Below are positions 8,611 to 25,173 of a stretch of DNA of 38,459 bases, piece by piece (the first letter of the stretch is position 1; each line of letters begins with the position of its first letter). The DNA is from Chloroflexota bacterium. Its GTDB lineage: Bacteria; Chloroflexota; Dehalococcoidia; CAUJGQ01. Made by a program: the position numbers and the translations under genes. Location: the NCBI GenBank assembly GCA_963170165.1, contig CAUJGQ010000075.1, forward strand, positions 1 to 38,459, given 5' to 3'. The notes below the pieces were generated by a model. That model was not told the DNA's origin, did not search any database, and was given only the letters and a program-made list of their open reading frames with translations.

Positions 8611-8865
8611 CTAGCCGGCGCCGGCGAGCACGAACTCTCGCTCGTCGACCGGTTCCATCGGGATGCTCGTCTCGGGGTCAATGCCGTAGTCAGCGACGAG
8701 CGCGGCGATCTCCTCTAGCTCATCGGGGGCGTGGCGGATGTACGGGGCGCCCTGGGTGAGCGCTACCTCCTCGTAGATGGCCTCCATCCCGGCGATGTAT
8801 GCGGACCACCGACGGGCTTGCTCAGTGCCATCCTCCGGTCGTACGGCGAGCGGTTGTGCGACCAT
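8611..8865 (-). CDS. Small acidic protein of unknown function
   Basis: An 84-residue frame starts at ATG 8865 behind GGGAGGA, four bases upstream, which is a strong start signal. The product is acidic, with a central EEVALTQGAPYIRHAPDELEE-like stretch and no Cys, membrane segment or signal peptide. The small size and helix-rich composition would fit a cytosolic accessory protein. I do not recognise a family. It is transcribed alone, with a hairpin downstream at 8535-8587. Confidence 0.6.
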   Translation of the reverse strand: MVAQPLAVRPEDGTEQARRWSAYIAGMEAIYEEVALTQGAPYIRHAPDELEEIAALVADYGIDPETSIPMEPVDEREFVLAGAG

Positions 8866-8990
8866 GACGTCCTCCCTGTGCCGGAACCGGGCAGGGGCGG
8901 TGGTGCCTGTAGTATCCGCAGCCAGGAGGGCGGGTGGCTGTCAGGCAGCCTGCGCCAAATGGTGAGAGGTATTGCAGGACAACCCCTGTA

Positions 8991-21598: not shown

Positions 21599-22567
21599 AT
21601 GGTCACGGTCAGCGCGCCGCATGCAGCCTGGGACGTCCATACCGCTGCTGGGGACTTTCCGGCGGATGGCCTGGCCGCCGAACAACTGCGCTTTCTGCTG
21701 CGCTACGCGACCCTGGCGCCGTCCGTTCACAATACCCAGCCCTGGCGCTTTCGGTTGGCCGGCGAGGCGGTCACCCTGCTGGCGGACCGCTCCCGCCAGC
21801 TCCCCGCCGCCGACCCCGAGGCGCGGGAACTGCTGATCAGCTGTGGCGCGGCGCTGTATCACCTGCGGTTGGCGCTGCGCCGCCATGGCCTGCGCGACGA
21901 CGTGTGCTACTGGCCCGAGCCGGCCGAGCCCGAAGCTGTTGCCCGCGTGCAGCTGGGCGAGCCGGTCACACCGGCGGCGGAGGATGAGCTGCTGTTCGCC
22001 GCCATCGCCGCCCGCCGCACCGCCCGAACGCCGTTGGAGGAGCGGCGGCCGGCGCCGGCAGTGGTGGCGGCACTGCGAGCGGCGGCGCGCGCCGAAGGCG
22101 CCTGGCTCCACACTGTCTCCTCCGAGCGGGCGCGGCGCGACATCGCGGCGCTGATTGCCGAGGGTGAGCAGTACGAGCGGGCCGATATCACCCTCCAGCG
22201 AGAGCGGTCGCGCTGGGCTGCGGGCTCCATCCTGACCTTTGCCACCGCGCACGGCATCGCTACCGAGCCATGGGAGATTGCCGCTGGGACGCCGCTACTG
22301 GCGGTGCTAGAGACCGAGGGCAACCACCGGGAGGACTGGCTGTCTGCCGGGCAGGCGCTGGCCCGGGTGCTGCTGCGGGCGGCCGCCGAGGGCGTGCAGG
22401 CCTCCTTCCTCAACCAGCCGTTGCACCATTCCGGACTGCGCGGGCGGCTGCGCGATATCATCGGCGGCAGTGATCACCCGCAGCTGATCCTGCGGCTGGG
22501 CTACCGCGCACACGCCGAGCCCGCCACCCGGCGGCCGCTGGCTGAGGTGCTGGAGGTTGCAGACTAA
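21599..22567 (+). CDS. Nitroreductase/Acg-family FMN-binding oxidoreductase
   Basis: The 322-residue protein matches the Acg-like branch of the nitroreductase fold. Key blocks are LRYATLAPSVHNTQPWRF (near residue 35), RRTARTPLEERRPAP (about 140-155), the GVQASFLNQPL region and QLILRLGYRAHAEPATRRPLAEVL at the C-terminus. Members bind FMN, but many Acg-type proteins do not reduce nitro compounds and may sequester flavin. ATG 21599 is chosen because AAGGGG lies eight bases upstream; the frame is open 11 codons further. It stands alone before convergent genes. No export signal is seen. Confidence 0.85.
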   Translation: MVTVSAPHAAWDVHTAAGDFPADGLAAEQLRFLLRYATLAPSVHNTQPWRFRLAGEAVTLLADRSRQLPAADPEARELLISCGAALYHLRLALRRHGLRDDVCYWPEPAEPEAVARVQLGEPVTPAAEDELLFAAIAARRTARTPLEERRPAPAVVAALRAAARAEGAWLHTVSSERARRDIAALIAEGEQYERADITLQRERSRWAAGSILTFATAHGIATEPWEIAAGTPLLAVLETEGNHREDWLSAGQALARVLLRAAAEGVQASFLNQPLHHSGLRGRLRDIIGGSDHPQLILRLGYRAHAEPATRRPLAEVLEVAD

Positions 22568-23198: not shown

Positions 23199-24080
23199 CT
23201 ACGCCGGCAGCGCGGCCAGCCAGATGACCGCGACCAGCCCGGTGGCAGGGGCGAGCAGCGTCCAGCCCGTGTGCAGGGCGGCCGGACCGGGACGGCGCAG
23301 GTAGAGCGCCACGGCGATTGCCAGCAGCAACGTCGCCGCCGTCAGCCCGGGCAGCAGCAGCCGTCGGTCGTGTCCCAGCGCCAGCCCCAATCCGAGCGCC
23401 AGCAGAATGGCGGCGAGGAAGCCGCCCCAACAGGCGGCAATCGCCCCGCGCCGCCCCAGCCACTGGGCGGTGCCGCGGACGCCTCCGGCTGCGTCGCTCT
23501 CCAGATCGGGTAGGGCGTTGGCCAGTTGTAGGGCGCCGCCCAGCAGCACACCGACCGGCCATACCCACAGTAACGCCGGGTTGAAGCGCCCGGTGGCGGT
23601 CCACACCCACAGCGGCACCAGCGGCAGGGCTACGGCGTAGGTCATGCTGCTTAGTGACGTACGCTTTAGCCACAGGTCATACGCCAGCCCCACGCCCATA
23701 CCGGCAGTAGAGAATGCCAGCGCCGCCGGGCCAAAGGTCGCTCCCAGGGCGGTCGCCAGCGTCATCGCCAGCACGGCCAGTGCTCGCGCTACTGGCAGCG
23801 AAACGGCCCCGCGGGGAACCGGCTTCCAGGGCTTAGCGGCGGCGTCCAGCTCGCGGTCTATGATGTCGTTGACGATGCCGATGGCGCTCTGGGCGGCCAG
23901 CATCGTCCCGGCGAGGCGCAGCGCCACGCCCATACCGGGCCAGCCGCGCACCGCCACGGCGGCCAGCGCCACCGCGGCGGCGGCATTGAGGACCGTCGGG
24001 AACGGGTGAAGCAGGCGGACCGCGGCGATAACCGGCAGCAGGGCAAGGGATGCGCCTGCTCTGTGCTGCTCATGCGTCAT
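23199..24080 (-). CDS. UbiA-family prenyltransferase
   Basis: The 293-residue membrane protein carries both Asp-rich Mg2+-prenyl diphosphate sites of the UbiA superfamily: NDIIDRELDA (N71, D72, D75, D79) and NALPDLESDAAGGVRG (N188, D192, D196). About eight or nine hydrophobic segments are visible. Members attach prenyl chains to aromatic or other acceptors in quinone, heme, chlorophyll or lipid synthesis; the acceptor is not evident here. A lipoprotein gene follows. It is divergent from prs across a 151-base region. The link to PRPP metabolism is only positional. Confidence 0.87.
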   Translation of the reverse strand: MTHEQHRAGASLALLPVIAAVRLLHPFPTVLNAAAAVALAAVAVRGWPGMGVALRLAGTMLAAQSAIGIVNDIIDRELDAAAKPWKPVPRGAVSLPVARALAVLAMTLATALGATFGPAALAFSTAGMGVGLAYDLWLKRTSLSSMTYAVALPLVPLWVWTATGRFNPALLWVWPVGVLLGGALQLANALPDLESDAAGGVRGTAQWLGRRGAIAACWGGFLAAILLALGLGLALGHDRRLLLPGLTAATLLLAIAVALYLRRPGPAALHTGWTLLAPATGLVAVIWLAALPA

Positions 24081-24115
24081 CGTTTGATGTTCCCTTTTCC
24101 CTGTTCCCTCTCCCC

Positions 24116-24124
24116 TGGTATACT
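24116..24124 (+). promoter_or_regulatory. Extended -10 promoter element for prs
   Basis: TGGTATACT matches an extended -10 (TGn plus TATACT). No good -35 lies at 17 bases, which is acceptable for extended -10 promoters. Transcription would start near 24131, giving a leader of about 100 bases before prs. Confidence 0.5.
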
Positions 24125-24158
24125 GCCGCTGGTTGGTGGTGGGAAACGGGTAGAGGGT

Positions 24159-24204
24159 AGGACCGGGATCGCGCAGGGATCTGCTGCATGGCCGGTCCTT
24201 TTTT
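24159..24204 (+). terminator. Terminator-like hairpin in the prs leader (possible attenuator)
   Basis: AGGACCGG (24159-24166) pairs with CCGGTCCT (24192-24199), with an inner GCAG/CTGC stem (24173-24176 with 24181-24184), followed directly by TTTTTT (24199-24204). It ends 27 bases before the prs start. No plus-strand gene upstream needs termination, because the neighbouring genes on that side are on the minus strand. It therefore most likely acts on the prs transcript itself. Confidence 0.65.
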
Positions 24205-24231
24205 GTGGCCCGTGAAGGAGGAGAGCCGCCG

Positions 24232-25173
24232 GTGTATCAGGAGTTGAGTATCTTCACGGGCAACGCCCACCCTGCCCTTGCGCATGCCATCTGCGACTAC
24301 CTGGGCCGCCCCATCGGCCGGGCGAAGGTGTTTGAGTTCTCCAACGAGAACATCTTCGTCGAGATCGGCGAGAATGTCCGCCAGCGAGATGTGTTCATCG
24401 TGCAGCCCATCGTCTCACCCGTGAACACCCGGCTGATGGAGCTGCTGATCATGATCGATGCTTTCCGCCGTGCGTCGGCGGGGCGCATCACCGCGGTCAT
24501 TCCTTACTATGCCTATGGTCGCTCGGACAAGAAGGACCAGCCGCGCGTACCGATCACCGCCCGCCTGATCGCCAATATGCTGGAGACAGCGGGGGTTGAC
24601 CGCGTGCTGACCATGGACCTGCACGCTGGGCAGATTCAGGGCTTCTTCAACATCCCAGTGGACGAGCTGACCGCTGCCTACACCATCGCTGAGTACTTCC
24701 AGAGCAAGGCGCTGAGCGACATCGTGGTGGTGGCCACGGACCTGGGCGGGGCGAAGCGGGCCCGCAACCTGGCCGAGCGGCTGAGTGCACCGCTGGCCCT
24801 GATCGAAAAGCGCCGTGTCTCCAACGCCGACCAAACCGAGCTGATGACCGTGATCGGCGAGGTCAAGGGCCGTCGCGCCATCGTCATCGATGACGAGATT
24901 GACACCGCCGGCACGCTCATGCAGACGGTCCACGCCCTGTGTGAGCGCGGTGTCGTCGAGGTCTACGCCGCCGCCACCCACGGCATTCTTTCGGGCCCGG
25001 CCATCTCCCGCCTGTGTGGCAGCCCGCTGCGTGAGGTGGTGCTTGCTGACACAGTGCCATTGGCCGAACACAAGCAACTCGACGTGATCACCACGCTCAC
25101 CATCTCCCCACTGCTCGGCCAAGCGATCAGCCGCATCCACACCGGCCAGTCCGTGGGCGCGCTGTTTCACTAG
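24232..25173 (+). CDS. prs: Ribose-phosphate diphosphokinase (PRPP synthetase)
   Basis: The enzyme makes PRPP from ribose 5-phosphate and ATP, feeding nucleotide, His, Trp and NAD synthesis. The 313 residues match the normal length. Motifs are FTGNAHPALA, FSNENIFVEIGENVRQRDVFIVQ, YYAYGRSDKKDQPRVPITARL (92-112; the common form has YGYARQDRK), DLHAGQIQGFF (H131), DLGGAKRA, IEKRR and the PRPP loop VIDDEIDTAGTL (218-229). GTG 24232 is the start because AGGAGGAGAG lies just upstream; the frame is open to 24205. An extended -10 promoter and terminator-like leader hairpin precede it, suggesting transcription attenuation. It is monocistronic and cytosolic. Confidence 0.93.
   Translation: MYQELSIFTGNAHPALAHAICDYLGRPIGRAKVFEFSNENIFVEIGENVRQRDVFIVQPIVSPVNTRLMELLIMIDAFRRASAGRITAVIPYYAYGRSDKKDQPRVPITARLIANMLETAGVDRVLTMDLHAGQIQGFFNIPVDELTAAYTIAEYFQSKALSDIVVVATDLGGAKRARNLAERLSAPLALIEKRRVSNADQTELMTVIGEVKGRRAIVIDDEIDTAGTLMQTVHALCERGVVEVYAAATHGILSGPAISRLCGSPLREVVLADTVPLAEHKQLDVITTLTISPLLGQAISRIHTGQSVGALFH

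Follow-up and report, generated by a model that had tools for sequence, protein, structure and literature searches.

A predicted intrinsic terminator in the prs leader of a Dehalococcoidia bacterium as a candidate transcription attenuator of PRPP synthetase

PRPP is a precursor for making purines, pyrimidines, histidine, tryptophan and NAD. The described systems closest to the prs leader analysed here are the PyrR attenuators (RF00515), the PRPP riboswitch (ykkC subtype 2b), the T-box leaders (RF00230) and the orphan premature terminators. PyrR attenuators place a U6 terminator about 35 nt before the start of a PRPP-related gene, as is the case here, and the same genome holds an example at its pyrR. 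The PRPP riboswitch, which controls transcription termination, would be the logical sensor for prs; the text of the PRPP riboswitch paper (eLife 2018, PMC5912903) does not mention this gene. T-box leaders resemble the prs leader in the stretch GAGGGTAGGACCGGG and in the type of terminator, which is also that of ilvB in this genome. Orphan premature terminators across bacteria were reported by Naville and Gautheret (2010, PMC2965389), who stressed the fast evolution of such leaders and whose main text does not mention prs. The prs leader likewise has a 5' terminator before a metabolic gene and shows no recognisable signal in its sequence, but that study required synteny across relatives, a support that the prs leader lacks. 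A limited search of the open-access literature found no paper on attenuation of prs, and a search of the same literature found no transcript-end data for this bacterial group.

We propose that the leader at about 24131-24231 of the window (the whole stretch of 38,459 nt, from an uncultured member of the Chloroflexota, that was analysed) contains a genuine intrinsic terminator that attenuates prs transcription: some transcripts would end at the U tract, and read-through would yield PRPP synthetase. We assign this reading a probability of roughly 0.55. If it is true, PRPP synthetase joins the genes under premature-termination control. The features concerned are as follows.

23199-24080, minus strand: divergent gene for a UbiA-family prenyltransferase, the upstream neighbour of prs
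24116-24124, plus strand: extended -10 promoter element TGG-TATACT of prs, read directly from the sequence; relatives' prs genes have like elements
24131-24159, plus strand: 5' end of the transcript (predicted start at about 24131), G-rich and almost unstructured
24141-24167, plus strand: three-tier G-quadruplex motif GGGAAACGGGTAGAGGGTAGGACCGGG, overlapping the 5' arm of the terminator
24160-24198, plus strand: terminator hairpin GGACCGG...CCGGTCC with an inner stem, from sequence reading and folding
24174-24200, plus strand: alternative hairpin AGGGATC...GGTCCTT, which would exclude the terminator (folding, -10.8 kcal/mol)
24199-24204, plus strand: U6 tract, from a T-run scan of the 38-kb window
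24215-24223, plus strand: ribosome binding site AAGGAGGAG, 8 nt 5' of the start codon, from sequence reading
24232-25173, plus strand: prs, ribose-phosphate diphosphokinase (PRPP synthetase), GTG start at 24232, from gene product identification

Promoter, hairpin, U6 tract, ribosome binding site and gene stand in the right order and spacing, with the terminator (24160-24204) between the predicted transcript start and the ribosome site; across the genome this combination is seldom met, and where it occurs it is mostly in leaders. The preliminary description had placed a hairpin with six U residues between an extended -10 element and the prs ribosome binding site, and direct reading of the sequence finds every part of this arrangement. 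It had also argued that no upstream gene on the plus strand needs the hairpin. This holds: no plus-strand gene ends just 5' of it, since UbiA lies on the minus strand, and the nearest plus-strand gene upstream with a family match, a nitroreductase gene, ends at 22567.

The extended -10 promoter that had been called good is likewise supported, though no good -35 accompanies it (TTTCCC stands at the expected place). A set of 100 distinct regions upstream of prs, most of them taken from relatives, has the pattern TGnTAnnnT within 130 nt of the start codon in 56 cases, and the recurrence of this type of element indicates that the prs -10 is probably real. A stricter -10 pattern is found in 51 of the 100 regions at a median distance of 50 nt from the start, against 107 nt in the window, so the leader here is about 55 nt longer than usual.

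Within the hairpin (39 nt), GGACCGG at 24160-24166 pairs with CCGGTCC at 24192-24198 to form the outer stem. Folded alone, hairpin and T6 reach -22.3 kcal/mol (z -3.3 against shuffles), and this stable GC-rich hairpin is followed directly by the U run, as in an intrinsic terminator. Among all runs of at least five T in the 38-kb window, only the one in the prs leader is both intergenic and preceded by a hairpin. A terminator scan missed the element because loops of up to 8 nt are all that it allows. RNA 3' ends in the U run are the predicted output of such a terminator.

How often such an arrangement arises was judged from 2.08 Mb, about half of the genome (69% GC), scanned on both strands, with genes called by codon usage using a simple home-made script (1,843 genes, 85% coding). 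Runs of at least six T number 21; seven of these lie between genes, directly behind a hairpin with a folding energy of -12 kcal/mol or lower. Across 1,268 leaders in the 2.08 Mb, hairpins with at least six T located 10-60 nt before a start codon occur five times in sense orientation and never in antisense:

pyrR, sense, T run 36 nt before the start
prs, sense, T run 33 nt before the start
pyrE, sense, T run 26 nt before the start
membrane protein gene, sense, T run 43 nt before the start
small Cys/His protein gene, sense, T run 24 nt before the start

A sixth such terminator, further upstream of its gene, belongs to the T-box leader of ilvB (Rfam T-box, 102 bits), and the pyrR leader scores 43.9 bits (E 5e-5) with the PyrR family RF00515, below the gathering score of 54. 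The numbers are small, and they place hairpins of this type where attenuators lie. They suggest that hairpins with U6 tails in this GC-rich genome sit mainly in leaders and therefore form a short list of regulatory candidates. Because the prs hairpin exceeds the chance expectation set by this base rate, it is probably a real terminator in an attenuator position; the argument rests on few cases, since the pyrE, membrane protein and Cys/His protein genes are without known regulation.

A classical riboswitch for PRPP, a purine or ppGpp, or a T-box, would be an obvious device at such a position, and prs is the right gene for a PRPP sensor. At gathering score, however, Rfam returned no relevant leader match in the window, and at E≤10 the leader region gave only chance matches to unrelated families, whereas the real T-box of this genome was recovered at 102 bits. 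The leader shows no conserved aptamer of the PRPP, purine or ppGpp classes, and only 29 nt precede the hairpin. The T-box reading draws on AGGGTAGGACCGGG at 24154-24167, which resembles the T-box sequence AGGGTGGNACCGCG; yet the tRNA-pairing UGGN reads UAGG here and is thus destroyed, there is no room for stem I and a specifier, and neither these nor a AGGGUGGNACCGCG antiterminator is present. Leader size largely refutes this whole class of explanation, which we regard as exceedingly improbable. Premature termination of prs transcription, as first put forward, is well supported by anatomy and base rate, but its extension to a purine or PRPP riboswitch found no Rfam match, and 29 nt are too short for an aptamer. 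The PyrR attenuators differ as well: a PyrR binding loop (UCCnGnGAGG) is missing before the prs terminator, the prs leader does not match the family, which did detect the pyrR leader of the same genome at E 5e-5, and the stretch leading up to its U tract measures 68 nt, compared with about 136. A leader peptide at 24136-24153 (GTG GTG GGA AAC GGG TAG) was rejected as very short and without a ribosome site.

Folding of the leader points to the terminator as the preferred state. The segment 24131-24159 has a single C in 29 nt, folds at -2 kcal/mol and begins with a two-tier G-quadruplex motif. In folds of the leader that extend to the U tract, the terminator prevails at -25.2 kcal/mol; with its arms kept apart, the best fold reaches -21.8 kcal/mol through AGGGATC/GGTCCTT (24174-24200). 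The search for an antiterminator pairing suggested at the outset thus did yield an alternative fold, but 518 of 1,000 shuffles do as well, no better than chance. Three-tier G-quadruplex motifs in sense orientation occur in 10 of 1,014 leaders of 100 nt in this genome (2 Mb), and two of those ten share the prs/UbiA intergenic region. With quadruplexes enabled, the folding program does not choose the G-quadruplex and keeps the terminator, which leaves the motif at 24141-24167 as a possibility. The signal controlling the terminator is not visible in the sequence.

The hairpin might instead be a 5' structure that affects mRNA stability or translation and does not terminate in vivo. Consistent with this, the full-leader fold (24140-24215; -35.4 kcal/mol, z -3.4) extends the hairpin to ACGGG/CCCGT and leaves the ribosome site unpaired in a loop. 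An uninterrupted U6 in a genome of 69% GC, with 21 runs of at least six T in 2.08 Mb, argues against it, and we consider such a role unlikely.

The hairpin is not conserved. Searched as DNA against 393 genomes of the class, the leader gave no match to the hairpin, the only convincing hit being the prs coding start, and no convincing homologue was found elsewhere in its own genome. The comparison set includes one genome of the genus and two of the family, and the other family member (L006) has no T run in its prs leader. In about 100 other prs leaders no strong terminator separates the promoter from prs; family f70 shows only weak ones, after the distal promoter, and in L027 and L140 the terminator lies 5' of the promoter and of a second promoter, respectively. 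Most relatives have short and unstructured prs leaders. The 42 leaders compared from promoter to start have a median z of +0.3, and the window, at -2.7, is the lowest and hence the most structured. A strong terminator at this place is thus confined to the window in the set of roughly 100, and sequence comparison marks the hairpin as lineage-specific; since prs identity to relatives does not rise above about 72%, an element of recent origin would escape the comparison. The preliminary description had named a conserved hairpin in related prs leaders as one test of its idea, and the outcome speaks against conservation of this hairpin: it was not found in relatives, although some other families have a positionally similar hairpin with a different 5' box.

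This lack of conservation, together with an antiterminator no better than shuffles, speaks for a constitutive terminator, one that is unregulated and either damps prs to a constant extent or blocks stray transcription arriving on the plus strand through the UbiA region; a fixed damper needs no sensor. On the other side, the terminator lies 3' of the prs promoter and so taxes prs itself, and some other leader terminators of this genome belong to a PyrR leader and a T-box. We regard a constitutive terminator as rather unlikely, and it is the main rival. With no Rfam fit and the G-quadruplex a possibility only, the reading that we favour is an attenuator with read-through determined in trans. Transcripts would start at about 24131, and a portion would terminate within the U tract (about 24200-24204), so that PRPP synthetase would be made only from the read-through fraction; that fraction would be set by a trans-acting factor on the G-rich 5' segment, be it an RNA-binding protein, polymerase speed or ribosome behaviour. 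As almost no sequence precedes the hairpin, any regulation of read-through is most likely in trans and not by a classical aptamer. Actual termination, its partial extent and the regulation of read-through are inferences from sequence; the hairpin probably trims the expression of a central nucleotide-metabolism gene.

Other Dehalococcoidia showed a prs leader of another type. Ten prs genes (L344, L345, L346 and L348-L354, at about position 1500 of each) carry an undescribed box, CTACCAGnCArACGC, just 3' of the -10 element, where transcription is predicted to start. A promoter-anchored search of the 393 class genomes found the box pattern at 11 places, against two for the reversed pattern used as comparison; ten of the 11 lie upstream of prs, in families f66, f50, f19, f36, f70 and f33, and the eleventh is not at prs and looks coding. 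A slightly longer box pattern did not turn up in 263 genomes from the remaining Chloroflexota classes. A GC-rich hairpin of varying sequence follows in most of the ten leaders, beginning 32-39 nt after the -10, and the window hairpin, at 34-35 nt, falls within this spacing; neither alignment nor the promoter-anchored pattern in its own genome (G000) places the box itself at the window's prs start. The box is part of an apparent palindrome, TTGTCTaccAGACAA, whose left half is not kept in L346, L348 and L354; a one-sided conserved unit of this kind points, tentatively, to RNA and away from a symmetric DNA operator.

In family f70 the box leaders carry a T/C-rich tail after the hairpin and then a second promoter. 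This layout, a promoter-box-terminator unit followed by a second TGCTATATT promoter near prs (L350-L353), would suit a hairpin that ends an independent small RNA of about 74 nt, with prs served by its own promoter further down. In the window, the 27 nt between 24204 and 24231 include the ribosome site and contain no promoter-like element, and no homologue of such an RNA was found in the 393 class genomes or in the genome itself, which makes a small RNA very unlikely here. The box leaders and the window leader could be variants of a single scheme for attenuating prs, or could be unrelated. More speculatively, and with little likelihood in our estimate, prs in Dehalococcoidia could be under an undescribed, fast-evolving leader/attenuator family composed of a promoter, about 35 nt of single-stranded RNA with a signal-reading element and a terminator. 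The element would be the box in some families and the G-rich, G-quadruplex-capable stretch here, where a G-quadruplex at 24141-24167 would take part of the terminator 5' arm and so act as antiterminator.

Several other leaders of this genome carry comparable elements. The PRPP-using gene pyrE (L259, contig C17, about 8840-8924) shares the layout of prs: its leader spans about 58 nt, the T6 behind the hairpin lies 26 nt from the ATG, and Rfam gives no match; read by eye, the pyrE leaders of relatives do not conserve the terminator sequence, and L328 and L329 have hairpins near the pyrE start. Strong hairpins with T8 or T6 stand directly before the start of the multi-pass membrane protein (L308, C44, about 16200, minus strand; no Rfam match) and of the small Cys/His protein (L298, C144, about 9931, plus strand; no Rfam match at gathering score). 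The ileS leader (L202, C128:11819, minus strand) combines a T-box-like core, GGGGTGGTACCGCGG, with a terminator and scores below the Rfam T-box gathering score. A second prs-like gene (L052, G000:C6:3414-4334), 42% identical to the prs of the window, is without such a leader. At the locus itself, the prs -10 is nearly palindromic (GTATAC), and a polypyrimidine stretch at 24090-24124, ahead of the prs promoter, reads on the minus strand as a further G-quadruplex motif in the leader of the divergent UbiA gene.
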